From a virus, in the IMG/VR virus record IMGVR_UViG_3300025897_000089, positions 1-23,912 of that record: DNA of 23,912 bases. One strand, written 5' to 3'. Under the pieces are notes generated by a model. The model was not told the DNA's origin. It saw only the letters and a list, made by a program, of their open reading frames with translations, and ran no database searches. Shown piece after piece: positions 168 through 22,881 of the stretch (within the stretch, counting starts at the first letter, position 1; the number at the start of each line of letters is the position of its first letter). The translations under genes were made by a program, and so were the position numbers.

Positions 168-2549
168 ATGGCGAAAGTAGGAGGCAATAAGAGATCATCA
201 AAAACAACATCTAACATCGACAGTGGGAGAGGCAGTAACCTTAGGAACAACCTTAGAACTCAAAATCTTGGCAGAGTAGACAACAACGACTACGATCTTG
301 GCAGAGTAGACAACAACGACTACGAAGGAACTGGTGCATATTTAATTCCAAGAGTAGACAGCAACGACTACGACAGAACGTCAAAAGGACTAGGAGGTAA
401 AGGTAATTTACGTCCAAACCTGCTCCACCAGTTCGCATCTTACAACACAATATTCACCTTGAGCGGGATCAACGAACAAGAAATGAAATCACACGATTTC
501 CTCGACAATGCACCACATGATATCATAGCCAGGACCGGCGGCATAGGAGACGCCAATATTAGTACCAGACAATTTAATTCACCTACTGGTTTATCAACCA
601 TAGCCACAAGATCAAACGAGTCCCAATTCAAGCGGGATTTCTCAGGAAGCATATCGATACTGGAACGGGCACATGACCTGTTCATAGAGAACGTCAACAT
701 GATATCCACTGCCAGCCCCAATCCAGAGAGGGGCCTGGGCAACTTCACCAAGATAGAATTCGAGATACACGAGCCCTATGGCGTGACCCTGATAGAGAAG
801 GTCAATGCCGCGACAGGGATCAATGGCTACAAGGACTACCAGGACGCTCCACTGTTGCTGACGATAGAATTCAAGGGATTTAACGAGAACGGTCAACAGG
901 TGAAGACAAAACCACTGGTCAGGAAGATACCCATCGGCATAGCACGTGTGGAGTTTGACGTCAACGAGGGCGGGGCAAGGTACAGCCTGATAGCCGTGCC
1001 ATACCCAGATCTGGGCTACGATGACAGGTACAAGTTTCCAAGGACCGACGTCCCCGTGGCAGTGTCCACACCACTGGACTGGGCGAGGAAGGTCATGGAA
1101 GTATTGAACGTGACCATGATGCAGAACGAGATAGAGGAGAAGAAGAGACAGCTCCCAGACGTGTATGAGTTTATCATCGATCCAAGAGTGCTGGAGTACG
1201 GTGTCGCCTATGCTTCAAATGAGACCAATGCCACCATAGTTGCCAATGCAGACAAGGGTGTTGTAATTGGAGAAGATGGTGAAATCTCCGTATTCAATCA
1301 ACCTACACGAATAGAGAAACTAGAGGGAACGGCAGGCACAACAACTGCCCTTACTAAATTCTTCGAGGATGCCATAAGGTCACTCACAGGTTACAAGGAC
1401 CTGGCAGAAAGCTTCTGGGTGACTTACCTGAGATCCGCGAAAGTGAAAGATGAAATACTGAACGACGAAGGGAAACTTGCCGAATTTGTAAACAGTGATC
1501 AGATGCAATCCGTCCTGATGGAGAACCAGTACGTGAATTGGTTCAAGATCAAGACCACGGTAGAAACAGACATTGACCAATTCGACGAAATAACCAGGAT
1601 GCACCCAAAGAAAATCATATACCAGGCGATACCATACAAGATACATGTGTTGAAACTGATAACACCGGGCGTCAGTGTGTCGGGTGTGGACTGGAGCAAA
1701 AAGGTACACAAGGAATACAACTACATATACACAGGTGCAAACCTAGATGTGCAGAACCTCAAGATAAACTACAAGACGGCCTACTACAGGAGGAATGTCC
1801 GGGGTGACGACAAGGGACAGGCGGAGCGAGGTATTTTCAACTGGATAGCAAAATCGGCCCAGGAAATATTTGGCCGGGAAAAATATCCAGAACCACTGAA
1901 ACCACTGAGGCAGTATCCGTCCATCAACAAGGGACGTAGCACAGTGAACACCGAGCAAGACAATCCCAAGCTCCAGGAGTTCTATGATTACCTGACAAAT
2001 CCAGAAGCAGATATGATCCGTATTGAACTGGAGATACTGGGAGACCCAGCATACCTCTGTCAGGACATGTACATGCCCATACACCAGGACAGGGTCACCA
2101 AAGCGGGTGGCCAGGGAACGTTCAGTGGAGCATTCGAAAGTTTCAACTCGGACTCCTTCCAGCCCATAATAGCGGTGAATTACAGGATACCCGATGACCT
2201 GAATGACAACAAGGGATTGATGTTCAGCGATGGGGGGAAAACTAGAGACGAGGATCTCTTCTTCAACGGGCTTTACCAGGTCAACAAGATCGACAGCAAA
2301 TTTGACAACGGACAGTTCACACAGACACTGCACTGTTCTAGGTTCAACAATCAACAGGGTGCGGGAACAGAACCACTGAAAGCATCCGTGGACATAGGCA
2401 CCAATAAAATTTTAAAAACTATTAGCGATAAAAAAGCTGACGACAAACAAACATTAAGGGACATTGTGGCAGACCAGATTAGCGATCTCGCAGGTGGCTC
2501 AGATGCCATACTCGATCGCGATGGTAAAGTACTGGGAGTAGACGAGTAG
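168..2549 (+). CDS. Large baseplate/tail hub-like structural protein (793 aa)
   Basis: This is probably a virion hub component, placed directly before the gp5 spike gene as hub (gp27/gpD-type) genes often are. It is not an enzyme I recognise. Residues 1-85 are a basic, low-complexity leader containing three RVD(N/S)NDY repeats at about 36-42, 46-52 and 62-68. The folded part seems to start at about 85 (LLHQFASYNTIFTLSGI). The C-terminal third carries I.LEILGDPAYL and later LFFNGLYQVNKIDSKFDNGQFTQ. That pattern (a G-Y-V strand, then F-x-x-G-x-F-x-Q-x-L-x-x-x-R) is typical of tail-hub proteins of the late-control-D/gp27 group. The last 60 residues are lysine- and aspartate-rich. No signal peptide or membrane segment is seen. 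The start is supported by TAGGAG 6 bases upstream. The hub role is inferred from the C-terminal pattern and the position. It could instead be another large baseplate protein common in marine T4-like phages. Confidence 0.6.
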   Translation: MAKVGGNKRSSKTTSNIDSGRGSNLRNNLRTQNLGRVDNNDYDLGRVDNNDYEGTGAYLIPRVDSNDYDRTSKGLGGKGNLRPNLLHQFASYNTIFTLSGINEQEMKSHDFLDNAPHDIIARTGGIGDANISTRQFNSPTGLSTIATRSNESQFKRDFSGSISILERAHDLFIENVNMISTASPNPERGLGNFTKIEFEIHEPYGVTLIEKVNAATGINGYKDYQDAPLLLTIEFKGFNENGQQVKTKPLVRKIPIGIARVEFDVNEGGARYSLIAVPYPDLGYDDRYKFPRTDVPVAVSTPLDWARKVMEVLNVTMMQNEIEEKKRQLPDVYEFIIDPRVLEYGVAYASNETNATIVANADKGVVIGEDGEISVFNQPTRIEKLEGTAGTTTALTKFFEDAIRSLTGYKDLAESFWVTYLRSAKVKDEILNDEGKLAEFVNSDQMQSVLMENQYVNWFKIKTTVETDIDQFDEITRMHPKKIIYQAIPYKIHVLKLITPGVSVSGVDWSKKVHKEYNYIYTGANLDVQNLKINYKTAYYRRNVRGDDKGQAERGIFNWIAKSAQEIFGREKYPEPLKPLRQYPSINKGRSTVNTEQDNPKLQEFYDYLTNPEADMIRIELEILGDPAYLCQDMYMPIHQDRVTKAGGQGTFSGAFESFNSDSFQPIIAVNYRIPDDLNDNKGLMFSDGGKTRDEDLFFNGLYQVNKIDSKFDNGQFTQTLHCSRFNNQQGAGTEPLKASVDIGTNKILKTISDKKADDKQTLRDIVADQISDLAGGSDAILDRDGKVLGVDE
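265..324 (+). repeat. Perfect 30-bp tandem repeat (two copies) with a degenerate third copy at 351-373
   Basis: Bases 265-294 and 295-324 are identical, starting ATCTTGGCAGAGTAGACAAC. A third partial copy at 351-373 has a single mismatch over 23 bases. The repeat is in frame (30 bp = 10 codons) and encodes RVDNNDYDLG-type units in the disordered N-terminus of the hub-like protein. Identity at the DNA level points to recent duplication by slippage or recombination. Confidence 0.9.
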
Positions 2550-2562
2550 GATAAATTATAGT

Positions 2563-5133
2563 ATGGTACGAAACACACAGGGATTTTCAGACACACACGA
2601 CAACCAGAAGAGCTTCGGTGAGGCCAATCACGCCAAGGATGCCGGACCTTACGTGGCGACGGTCAAAACAGTCACGGATCCCCTGAGGATGGGGAGACTG
2701 GGAGTGAACATTCCCGCACTGACGAACACGACACGACCCAAGCCAGACCAGATCATATGGTGTCAGTACCTGTCACCGTTCTACGGTGCCAAGAGCATTG
2801 AGGCAGTCTCGAAGACAGATCCTTATGATTACAGGGAGACACAGCACTCCTACGGGTTCTGGGCGGTGCCACCTGACATAGACACAGAGGTACTGGTAGT
2901 ATTCGCCAAGGGAGACAGGACCGCCAACACTGCATTCTGGATAGGTTGTGTGCAGAAGCCACTGGTGAACCAACAGATTCCGGCACACGGTGCCACAACG
3001 AACACGAGCCTTCCGGCCGAGGCATCGGAATTGGGGGGAACGACAAAATCAAATTTATATGGCACGGAGAGTTTGCCAGCCGGTGAGAAGAACCAATTGG
3101 ATTATGCAGATGGCGAGGTACTGGCCACGGTCGACAAATGGAAGCTTCCGGTCAACGACATACTAGCGGATCAGATGAAAGGACAAGGACTTGTGCAAGA
3201 TCCTGTGAGGGGGACAATAACATCATCCGCAAGGAGGGAGTCTCCCAGCAAGGTGTTTGGGATCAGCACACCAGGAGCCATAAGATCGGATTCGAGAAAA
3301 AAGAATATAGGATTAGACAACAGCGTGGTGAGGCCAGACAGGAATCCTGGACACAGCTTTGTCATGGACGACGGAGACATCAATGGAGAAAACCAGCTGA
3401 CAAGGATAAGGACGGCATCGGGACATCAGATCTTGATGCACGACACAGAGGGCACGGTGTACATAGCCAACGGTTCAGGAAAGGCATTCATAGAGATGGA
3501 GAAGGATGGCACCATAAGTGTGTTCTCAGACGGAGGCATAAACATGAGGACCAAACAGGATTTCAACCTACACTCGGACAGGCACGTGAACTTCCACGCA
3601 AAGGGCAGTCTGAACTTCACGGCGGAGCAGAACGTAAACCTCAACGGGGGATTCAACGTACAGACGATGGCGAAGAATTCGATACTCAATTCGTCACAGG
3701 GTGATCTGAGAAGTTACGCCGCGACACAGATAACGTCTTTCACACGTGGGACACAGATGCACGGGGCGGGCGGAAACATAGACCTGGCTGGCGCCCAGGT
3801 ACACATGAACTCACAGGGTGCTAGAGCAGGATGGGGGCCATCATGGTTGGTGCCAGAGTCTGAACGGGTTGGCATCAAGGTAACAGGAGGTGAGGTCACT
3901 GATGGAGACGCCGCACTGATAGACATAGACAGTAGAAGACCATTCAGACCATATAATTCAAAGATAGATGATAAAACAATAGGTGTTGATAAATTTGACA
4001 ATGCAGTTGTGCAAAAGAAATCAGGAGCCCAACCAAACAAGATTGCAAACAAGACCACAGTGTCAGATTTTGTTACACACGAGCCATACACCAGGACCAG
4101 CAGTACTGCGATAAGGAAGCGATACATCAATCAGATATTGGAAAGCATAGAGTCGGGGAATCCCGGTATGTCATCACAGGACCTGGAAAACATAAAAAAA
4201 CAATTACTTTCCAAGGACAGCATAGACGCCGTGTTAGCCGAGGTCAACAAGATAGTCAGTGTGACCAGCGACAGGGTATCCGAGTTCGCATCAACGGAGA
4301 TAAACAAGCTCGTTGGCGACAACACGAAACTGAATTCTTCACAGTTGAACAACATACAACAGTTACTGGTCGGACCCTCTATCGCTAGTGTGTCAGGTGA
4401 GATCAGTAAAATCGTGGGCAAAAACGTGAACCTAAATTCTTCACAGTTGAACGACATAAAAACAAAAGTACTTGCCAATCCAGACGTAGCCTTCATATCA
4501 AGGGAGATCAAGAAAATTACGGGAATAACCGAGAACGTGAACCTGGATCTTTCACAACTGAACAATTTAAAAACAAAATTACAGAACAAACCCAACATAG
4601 CTGATGTGTCGGGTGAGATCAGGAAAATCGTGGGTGACAACGTGAAACTAGATCTCTCACAACTGAACAATGTAAAAACAAAATTACTGGCCAATCCGGA
4701 CGTGGCCAAGTTCACGAAACAGGTAAGTGGTTATGCCAAGGACATCGTGGGACTATCAGAGGCGGTGACAGTGAATCTCGAGGCACTGAATGACCTAAAA
4801 AATAAAGCCGTTGCTTATAAAAATGATATCAAGAATGCGGCCTCGGGTTTCATACAAGGCGTAGTATCAAAGTATACTACACAGGCATTCAACTATGCTA
4901 AAGATTTCATTAAAGGCTTCAAATGGAGCGACAGCAGACTGAAAGAAGACATACGATTAGTTGGCAAGTCACCCATGGGTATCAACATATATTCGTTTAA
5001 ATACAAACAGTCAGCAGGAACATACGAGGGCGTGATGGCCCAGGAAGTTCCATGGGCGAGACAAATGACAGACACAGGATTCTACATGGTGGATTACAGC
5101 AAGGTGGATGTTGAATTTAGGAGATCGAACTAA
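2563..5133 (+). CDS. 5: gp5-like central spike protein with repeat stalk and C-terminal S74-type chaperone motif (856 aa)
   Basis: This is the central needle of the baseplate, which contacts the cell envelope first on contraction. Residues 28-134 look like the gp5/VgrG OB fold (YVATVKTVTDPLRMGRLGV then FWAVPPDIDTEVLVVFAKGD). The T4 lysozyme domain that should follow is absent; instead there is a linker to about 260. Residues 265-420 have the short alternating strands of the trimeric gp5 beta-helix (MEKDGTISVFSDGGINMR, LHSDRHVNFHAKGSLNFTA). Residues 537-755 contain about six 36-42-aa repeats built on SQLNN(I/L/V)KTKL. The C-terminus has WSDSRLKEDI at 788-797, then GINIYSFKY and YEGVMAQEVPWA. 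This is the intramolecular chaperone (peptidase S74) signature, with S789 and K794 matching the endosialidase Ser/Lys dyad. T4 gp5 is about 575 aa. AGGA at 2548-2551 lies 11 bases before the ATG. The gp25 gene overlaps by one base. Confidence 0.85.
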   Translation: MVRNTQGFSDTHDNQKSFGEANHAKDAGPYVATVKTVTDPLRMGRLGVNIPALTNTTRPKPDQIIWCQYLSPFYGAKSIEAVSKTDPYDYRETQHSYGFWAVPPDIDTEVLVVFAKGDRTANTAFWIGCVQKPLVNQQIPAHGATTNTSLPAEASELGGTTKSNLYGTESLPAGEKNQLDYADGEVLATVDKWKLPVNDILADQMKGQGLVQDPVRGTITSSARRESPSKVFGISTPGAIRSDSRKKNIGLDNSVVRPDRNPGHSFVMDDGDINGENQLTRIRTASGHQILMHDTEGTVYIANGSGKAFIEMEKDGTISVFSDGGINMRTKQDFNLHSDRHVNFHAKGSLNFTAEQNVNLNGGFNVQTMAKNSILNSSQGDLRSYAATQITSFTRGTQMHGAGGNIDLAGAQVHMNSQGARAGWGPSWLVPESERVGIKVTGGEVTDGDAALIDIDSRRPFRPYNSKIDDKTIGVDKFDNAVVQKKSGAQPNKIANKTTVSDFVTHEPYTRTSSTAIRKRYINQILESIESGNPGMSSQDLENIKKQLLSKDSIDAVLAEVNKIVSVTSDRVSEFASTEINKLVGDNTKLNSSQLNNIQQLLVGPSIASVSGEISKIVGKNVNLNSSQLNDIKTKVLANPDVAFISREIKKITGITENVNLDLSQLNNLKTKLQNKPNIADVSGEIRKIVGDNVKLDLSQLNNVKTKLLANPDVAKFTKQVSGYAKDIVGLSEAVTVNLEALNDLKNKAVAYKNDIKNAASGFIQGVVSKYTTQAFNYAKDFIKGFKWSDSRLKEDIRLVGKSPMGINIYSFKYKQSAGTYEGVMAQEVPWARQMTDTGFYMVDYSKVDVEFRRSN
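4171..4830 (+). repeat. Degenerate tandem repeat in the gp5-like gene (about 6 units of 110-125 bp)
   Basis: The units encode an SQLNN(I/L/V)KTKLLANPDVA core followed by SGEI.KIVG.NV.L. The middle three or four are also close in DNA, for example TCACAACTGAACAAT recurs at about 4552 and 4657. Predicted to be helical and charged-amphipathic, so it could extend the spike as a trimeric helical stalk. That structural role is inference. Confidence 0.8.
4924..5133 (+). other. Peptidase S74-type intramolecular chaperone motif at the gp5 C-terminus
   Basis: Residues 788-856 of the gp5-like protein: W then SDSRLKEDI, GINIYSFKY, EGVMAQEVPWA and MVDYSKVDVEF. In endosialidase-type fibres, cleavage occurs just before the Ser of SDxRxK, so cleavage here would release about 68 residues. 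The domain is short compared with the 100-150 residues usual in tail spikes, so autoproteolysis is uncertain. Confidence 0.75.
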
Positions 5134-5135
5134 TG
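5119..5135 (+). promoter_or_regulatory. RBS and TAATG overlap coupling gp5 to gp25
   Basis: AGGAG at 5119-5123 lies 9 bases before the gp25 ATG (5133-5135). The gp5 stop TAA (5131-5133) shares its last A with that ATG, a standard stop-restart overlap. This fixes the gp25 start. Confidence 0.75.
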
Positions 5136-5558
5136 GCATATGGTAGCGGTAGCGGTGGCGGTGGTGGATCAAATCTGACTAACAAGACCGTGACCTTCAA
5201 GGGTTTCAGTTCCAAGGCGGACAAACAGAACTTCAAACTGTATGACTTTGAATGTGCCAAACAGGATCTCATAAACAGACTGAGCATAAGAAAGGGCGAG
5301 AGGGTGGAGAACCCGGAGTTCGGCACCATAATATACGATGCTATATTTGAGCCGTTCACTGAAGCACTAAAGGACGCCATTCTAGAGGATGTCACGGCGA
5401 ATCTCAACGCAGATCCACGTATAGCCACGGAAGAGATATTGGTCACGGAAGCGGACAAGGGCATAGCCATACAGGCCACTATCACGTATGTTCCACTGAA
5501 TATCACAGAGAAATTGAGATTTGGCTTTGATGAGAACTCACTGTCGCGTCTATCTTAA
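5133..5558 (+). CDS. 25: Baseplate wedge protein gp25 (141 aa)
   Basis: gp25 is a conserved baseplate wedge component of contractile tails, with relatives in phage P2 (gpW) and type VI secretion (TssE). It sits at the inner baseplate with gp6 and gp53 and is linked to the start of sheath polymerisation. The conserved segment is FKLYDFECAKQDLINRLSIR, then KGERVENPEFGTIIYDAIFE, which contains the family's R.GE....P.FG motif at about residues 50-65. Length is close to T4 gp25 (132 aa). The extra is an N-terminal tract of serines and glycines (residues 4-13) that looks like a flexible linker. The gene overlaps the gp5 stop by one base with AGGAG 9 bases upstream, so this start is well supported. 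The gp6 gene follows after the only real gap in the window. Confidence 0.93.
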   Translation: MAYGSGSGGGGGSNLTNKTVTFKGFSSKADKQNFKLYDFECAKQDLINRLSIRKGERVENPEFGTIIYDAIFEPFTEALKDAILEDVTANLNADPRIATEEILVTEADKGIAIQATITYVPLNITEKLRFGFDENSLSRLS

Positions 5559-22155: not shown

Positions 22156-22881
22156 ATGACACAGGATACTAAACAAACAGAATCAAAAGAAGAAAACAAA
22201 AAACCCCAGGATAACACAGGTGTTATGATGACGGGACATATCAAGATCTTTGACCCAGAGACGGGTGAGGTCATCGTTGATAAAAGAAACGCGATCCACT
22301 ACGAGAACATGTCTCAGGCATTGGCCAATTCGCTGGCAAACAAGACAACAGGCTTTGTGCATGAGATGGCATTAGGTAATGGCGGAACAAGTGTTGATCC
22401 CACAGGTATAATCACATATCTTACACCAAACTCAACAGGTACAAATGCAACTTTGTACAACCAAACATATTACAAAGTGGTAGATGATACTTCTGCTACC
22501 AACAAGGACACCACGAGGAACAAGATGGAAGTGAGACACACGGCAGGTAACAAGTACACCGACATTGTTGTGACTTGCACATTGGATTATGGTGAGCCCA
22601 CGGGACAGGCCGCGTTTGACAACACAACAGATTTCAATGGCGATTATGTGTTTGATGAATTGGGACTGAAATCATGGGAAGGGACAGAGAACGGATCAAC
22701 GAACAAACTGTTGACACACGTTGTATTCCATCCAGTACAGAAATCTCTAAACAGGTTGATACAAATTGATTACACTTTAAGGATTCAGAGTTTAACAACA
22801 TTCACCGAAACAAGCTCGACTGCACTGTCAACTTCAAACACAGTAAGTGGAACGACTTCAGGTGGTAACACAGGATACTAA
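22156..22881 (+). CDS. Phage virion structural protein, unknown role (241 aa)
   Basis: A putative baseplate or tail structural protein, placed between the gp7-like and fibre-like genes where T4 has gp8 and gp9. I see no convincing similarity to either. Residues 1-24 are polar and charged (MTQDTKQTESKEENKKPQDN). The conserved-looking core begins at about 26 with GHIKIFDPETGEVIVDKRNA, followed by IHYENMSQALANSLANKT, MALGNGGTSVDP and DIVVTCTLDYGEPTGQAAFD...FDELGLK. This layout recurs in structural proteins of marine T4-like phages. The last 28 residues are Thr/Ser/Gly-rich and end in GY, like gp6. The ATG lies 9 bases after the giant gene's stop with no Shine-Dalgarno, so it may depend on coupling. 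M24/M25 (22225, 22228) are alternative starts with AGG at 22218-22220. Confidence 0.75.
   Translation: MTQDTKQTESKEENKKPQDNTGVMMTGHIKIFDPETGEVIVDKRNAIHYENMSQALANSLANKTTGFVHEMALGNGGTSVDPTGIITYLTPNSTGTNATLYNQTYYKVVDDTSATNKDTTRNKMEVRHTAGNKYTDIVVTCTLDYGEPTGQAAFDNTTDFNGDYVFDELGLKSWEGTENGSTNKLLTHVVFHPVQKSLNRLIQIDYTLRIQSLTTFTETSSTALSTSNTVSGTTSGGNTGY

Follow-up and report, generated by a model that had tools for sequence, protein, structure and literature searches.

The stretch of DNA analysed here (the window) is an entire virus record of 23.9 kb and contains, in order, genes for a gp27-like virion protein, the spike under study, gp25, a gp6-like wedge protein and a very large protein of 4350 residues (Table 1). 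This order corresponds to a T4-related baseplate operon and was kept in all relatives examined. A gp53-like gene is also present in the operons of the relatives, and its position would lie beyond the left end of the window. The spike ORF is open and complete, and the product of the gene preceding it is probably a gp27-like hub in which the spike is seated, a role suggested by gene position. Pfam searches of the 4350-residue protein identified no hydrolase. The nearest cultured phages for both the wedge protein and the protein encoded from position 22156 were jumbo phages such as Phosso, Atu_ph07, PA5oct/Paride and the Rak2 group, and a 138-kb relative encodes T4-like portal, gp23, terminase and sheath proteins. 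The source phage is contractile-tailed, T4-related and probably of the jumbo type. Metagenome-assembled bins in which contigs with relatives were placed (Pelagibacter, Porticoccaceae and Betaproteobacteria) were considered as a guide to the host, but these contigs are probably misbinned phage DNA and little informative.

Table 1. Genes of the window and features of the spike precursor, with nucleotide positions in the window
Feature	Position	Strand	Evidence
Upstream virion protein, probably gp27-like hub seating the spike	168..2549	+	phrog_11190; identical position in all relatives
Central spike precursor, gp5/VgrG-type hub, 856 aa	2563..5133	+	complete ORF; phrog_13211; Foldseek
OB-fold region, residues ~28-132	2644..2958	+	PF04717 at 96-129; invariant columns in alignment A1
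Conserved connector from OB fold to beta-helix, residues 133-265 (lysozyme position of T4 gp5)	2959..3357	+	Pfam; AF2
Triple beta-helix region, residues ~275-430	3385..3852	+	VgrG 8gra match at 275-418; PF10106 weak; DUF2345 region
THEPY motif, residues 505-509, invariant, directly ahead of the exchangeable tip module	4075..4089	+	alignment A1: T505, H506, E507 and P508 invariant
Tip stalk, residues 510-788	4090..4926	+	AF2 helices; one of two stalk families
35-residue helix-pair repeats, residues ~590-735	4330..4767	+	autocorrelation, lag 35
Predicted scissile bond W788/S789	4924..4929	+	PF13884 start; S74-less relatives end here
Peptidase_S74 domain, residues 789-856; putative dyad S789 (4927-4929) and K794 (4942-4944)	4927..5130	+	
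gp25 baseplate wedge protein	5133..5558	+	PF04965; own ATG overlaps spike stop codon (junction sequence)
gp6-like baseplate wedge protein, 1160 aa	5612..9094	+	phrog_10646, E 3.8e-292
Giant virion protein, 4350 aa	9094-22146		FG-GAP repeats and CBM5/12 module

The spike core and the site of tip exchange

Residues 28-411 of the spike matched the PHROG family phrog_13211, annotated as 'baseplate hub subunit and tail lysozyme' (E 2.2e-31), and the OB fold was recognized by PF04717 (Phage_base_V; 25.8 bits against a cut-off of 23.8), with K35, D39, G44, W100, P103, P104 and D105 as invariant columns of this region in alignment A1. In a family profile search the beta-helix region matched the VgrG spike 8gra with an E value of 1.5e-6. 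The AF2 model of the spike had a mean pLDDT of 60, and Foldseek matches to it were the spikes of the Algoriphagus and Anabaena injection systems, VgrG and T4 gp5. On the basis of these family, profile and fold matches the ORF is identified as a central spike of gp5/VgrG type.

The first-pass annotation had described a gp5 spike without lysozyme between OB fold and beta-helix, and this description held. No Pfam match was obtained for the connector, which carries the conserved motifs SSARRESPS and GISTPG, and lysozyme families matched nowhere in the complete spike protein. Residues 134-265 were modelled by AF2 as strands and three short helices rather than as a lysozyme, and together with the lack of a Pfam match this rules out a lysozyme hidden at this position. 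The interpretation of this absence has to be revised: the OB fold likewise continues straight into the beta-helix in the relatives, and those relatives that have enzymes carry them at the C-terminus. Absence of an internal lysozyme is thus, as judged from sequence comparison, normal for the phrog_13211 spike family and not a loss from the T4 position. The spikes of the jumbo phages (CBB/Rak2-like, Asteriusvirus SP27, Atu_ph07 and Paride/PA5oct) belong to the same family, lie in the same operon, are 28-35% identical to the window spike over residues ~25-416 and also lack an internal lysozyme. They differ at the C-terminus, ending in a GH24 domain (SP27, residues 765-882), a Trypsin_2 domain (Atu_ph07, residues 700-849) or in no module at all (Paride, which ends at 477 residues), whereas the window spike ends in a stalk and an S74 domain. 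A C-terminal lysozyme was also noted in CBB_240 by its authors (PMC5259590). The stalk and S74 domain therefore occupy the place at which enzyme-bearing relatives carry their enzyme.

T4 gp5 (Foldseek 1k28) shares with the window spike an N-terminal OB fold, a C-terminal beta-helix region and the place in the baseplate operon. However, the lysozyme of T4 gp5 is placed between these two domains, where none was found in the window spike by Pfam or AF2, and the window spike has the additional C-terminal stalk and S74 domain. T4 gp5 is cleaved internally, after its lysozyme, whereas the cut predicted below would free the C-terminus. VgrG and eCIS spikes (8gra, 7aef, 7b5h) resemble the window spike in combining OB fold and beta-helix without lysozyme and in their variable C-terminal extensions; in VgrG a gp27-like part is fused to the spike, whereas here it is a separate gene, and no PAAR protein was found here in the partial records searched.

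The point of variation among the spikes lies immediately behind the motif THEP. Among 122 distinct complete spikes, whose mode of collection enriched the sample for S74, the part following this motif was short (~9-30 residues) in 16, long without S74 in 41 and ended in S74 in 61, whilst the remaining 4 had no THEP motif by the pattern used. As the tip can be short, long or S74-ended, the position behind THEP is a swap site, which may be empty or occupied by an enzyme, by a helical stalk alone or by such a stalk together with S74. THEP itself was almost invariant in spikes of every type (residues 505-509 in the window spike, with equivalents in L012, L014, L020, L021 and L082); short hubs stop ~15 residues beyond the motif, and it may serve as a docking place for a separate tip protein.

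A helical repeat stalk and a short S74 domain

A helical repeat stalk, also proposed in the first-pass annotation, was supported by autocorrelation of the stalk sequence, with a peak of 0.051 at a lag of 35 residues against a maximum of 0.008 in 300 shuffles. Repeat units begin near residues 593, 627, 664 and 699 and were modelled as paired short helices (pLDDT ~60-82), indicating a helix-pair repeat rather than one continuous coiled coil. A continuous trimeric coiled coil was considered for the stalk, but the model suggests helix pairs with moderate confidence. The stalks fall into two families without detectable similarity, comprising 12 sequences (including the window) and 65 sequences, counts that include members without S74, and both families occur with and without S74. 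Identity to the window spike varied independently along the protein: L006 was 41% identical in the OB half, 62% in the stalk and 86% in S74, and L011 was 70% identical in the OB half and 76% in S74 with no similarity in the stalk. This pattern indicates, at the level of sequence, that stalk and OB halves have been swapped between spikes. Between the window spike and L003, dS was 0.05 for S74 but 1.5 for the OB halves, indicating a recent exchange of the stalk and S74 end between phages.

The S74-type signature reported in the first-pass annotation was corroborated by PF13884, which matched from S789 with 22.5 bits for the whole protein and 25.9 bits for the C-terminal 128 residues (cut-off 22). 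This match is marginal for the window spike alone, but 69 of 69 family members matched with E <= 0.01. The numbering given previously for W788, S789 and K794 was also correct. With eight of these domains as queries, at least 404 related stretches were recovered from viral contigs. In the 87 S74-bearing loci read, the Ser, Asp, Arg and catalytic-type Lys were invariant (87/87), within the motif S-D-x-R-L-K (R-Y-K once). A domain length of 68 residues was shared by 86 of these loci, and P1, the position preceding the Ser, was F, W or Y in 82. This S74 subtype was largely confined to spikes of the window's family, which accounted for 68 of 71 full-length carriers. L170, L171 and L172 carry it on proteins of 350-748 residues without detectable spike domains. 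In L026 (1990-4207) a frameshift, either a sequencing error or a real break, splits the spike gene between beta-helix and S74, leaving a 450-residue ORF with S74 in another frame. The nearest S74 domains in cultured phages were 40-43% identical and located on other virion proteins; the two carriers examined were of ~330 residues, in phages of 41-42 kb.

The known S74/ICA domains of endosialidase NF, K5 lyase, the T5 L-shaped fibre, GA-1 gp12 and MyRF share with the window spike the motif S-D-x-R-L-K, the C-terminal location and a Ser and Lys five residues apart, the spacing being equal to that of MyRF S587/K592 and endoNF S911/K916. In MyRF, change of either dyad residue to alanine abolishes cleavage (PMC8326128). 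The domain described here differs from these in being only 68 residues long and in lacking a C-terminal coiled coil, leaving no room for the C-terminal trimerization helix of known members; the Pfam S74 model spans 58 positions, so this helix is outside the Pfam definition. It also differs in being carried by the axial spike and not by a fibre or tailspike, and in the window spike it follows an alpha-helical segment and not directly a beta-helix. The S74 part was modelled poorly by AF2 even with 69 sequences (pLDDT 52). A coiled-coil helix was absent from this low-confidence model, Foldseek retrieved no S74 structure with it, and a PDB profile search for the domain matched no S74 structure. 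As S74 has no trimerization helix, it must be the spike or stalk that keeps the trimer together.

Ends of S74-less spikes and probable maturation of the precursor

If the spike is cut before the Ser, the new end should match the point at which functional spikes without S74 stop, and the ends of S74-less spikes are therefore informative. In the window's stalk family the S74-less spikes L007, L008, L010, L019, L023 and L024 end in FFRF, whilst L029 and L033 of the second family share the ending FKFW, and L038 and L040 close with SRFF and VFGF, respectively. The last residue was thus aromatic (F or W) in all 10 S74-less stalk spikes examined. When projected on S74-bearing relatives, these ends lay mostly 0 to -3 residues from the Ser, with scores well above those of shuffled tails. 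Residues 1-194 of the 197-residue L033 stalk, for example, aligned with residues 1-185 of 189 in L157 (61.5%, E 5e-76), and in L157 four residues remain between the aligned stalk end and S74. Some scatter was observed, with L038 ranging from +5 to -22 and projections on the window spike often at -7, where the local alignment stops early. As the sequences within each stalk family are related, the ten ends amount to two independent cases. The possibility that S74 is encoded as a separate gene in the S74-less relatives was rejected, no SD.RLK motif being present in any frame of those loci and gp25 following directly. These end-points support autocleavage with W788 as the last residue of the mature stalk tip, thereby strengthening the cut before S789 predicted in the first-pass annotation, and since the S74-less relatives stop almost exactly at the predicted cut the cap probably serves assembly only temporarily.

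The data are best accommodated by a self-trimming precursor, a reading that, taken as a whole and judged from sequence, we consider probable. The spike would be made as a trimeric precursor, seated in the baseplate hub by its OB fold and with the beta-helix as its shaft, both roles being suggested by homology. Behind the shaft would follow a swappable tip module, here the helical repeat stalk and elsewhere a cell-wall enzyme or nothing. The 68-residue S74 domain would act as an intramolecular chaperone, probably assisting assembly of the stalk tip, and presumably acting on the stalk rather than on the distant beta-helix. It would then cut itself off at W788/S789 by means of the putative Ser789-Lys794 dyad, yielding a mature spike of 788 residues with an aromatic end and the stalk exposed at the tip; any function of the aromatic end is conjectural. 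Within this scheme the order of the domains, the homology to S74 seen with sequence profiles, the invariant dyad, the swap site and the ends of S74-less homologues are directly supported. Cleavage at W788/S789 is most likely, given the S74 homology and those same ends.

Three other explanations were weighed. S74 might be a folding or trimerization cap that does not cleave and stays on the needle tip. ICA trimerization and cleavage in MyRF depend on the C-terminal coiled-coil helix (PMC8326128), and the short domain here has no such helix. However, a non-cleaving cap would not need a Ser and Lys invariant in every locus read, and S74-less relatives of two stalk families end at the cut site; we regard this explanation as unlikely. 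Less likely still is that S74 moves as a module between spike genes by recombination and hardly affects its carriers, its presence reflecting gene exchange at the stalk end and not need. The exchange of stalk and S74 independently of the OB half, the dS contrast with L003 and the many relatives that manage without S74 are all consistent with such a module. Against it stand purifying selection across distant pairs (dN/dS ~0.12 between the S74 domains of the window spike and L011), the constant domain length and invariant motif, and the strong restriction of the domain to spikes.

The remaining explanation, that the ORF encodes a tail fibre or tailspike whose OB-like start arose by chance, would agree with S74 being otherwise known from fibres and tailspikes. 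It is already contradicted by the hub family and fold matches and by the operon place between gp27-like hub and gp25/gp6 in all relatives, and we give it almost no credence.

Possible tip function and distribution of capped spikes

A separate tail lysozyme and a PAAR tip protein, for which the first-pass annotation had suggested looking elsewhere in the genome, were not found in 14 partial S74-type records. The lysozyme, SLT and M23 families (PF00959, PF01464 and PF01551) were absent from these records (~836 kb), and PAAR, searched with one model (PF05488), gave no match in sets of 13 and 14 partial records. When 136 ORFs of the 138-kb partial record were scanned with Pfam, no clear peptidoglycan hydrolase appeared among the matches listed. 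We advance as a speculative and rather doubtful extension that the needle, once S74 has been removed, acts directly on the envelope with an aromatic alpha-helical tip exposed in this way, which takes the place of tail lysozyme and PAAR tip, such non-enzymatic, self-uncapping needles being abundant in environmental viruses.

The fibres and tailspikes from which self-cleaving S74 chaperones are known lie at the side of the tail, whereas here at least 68 full-length spike genes place the domain on the needle of the tail axis, which crosses the envelope. A search of the open-access literature, which leaves out most subscription papers, gave no account of S74 on a central spike or hub. The combination of a jumbo-phage gp5-family spike with a short S74 domain, most likely self-removing at W788/S789, appears to be common in environmental viruses. 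If the self-trimming reading is correct, needle tips would be exchangeable cartridges (enzyme, protease, bare stalk or self-capped stalk) behind a fixed junction, and precise C-termini could be assigned to mature needles. It also raises the question of how the cell wall is opened by phages without a recognizable tail lysozyme.

The 138-kb relative showed several further features. A second protein (L088-L091) matches Peptidase_G2, another self-cleaving chaperone domain. The same phage record (L088-L090) also encodes an alternative oxidase (PF01786, 9.4e-79), five radical-SAM proteins, Asp/Asn hydroxylases, a carbamoyltransferase and a fatty-acid desaturase.
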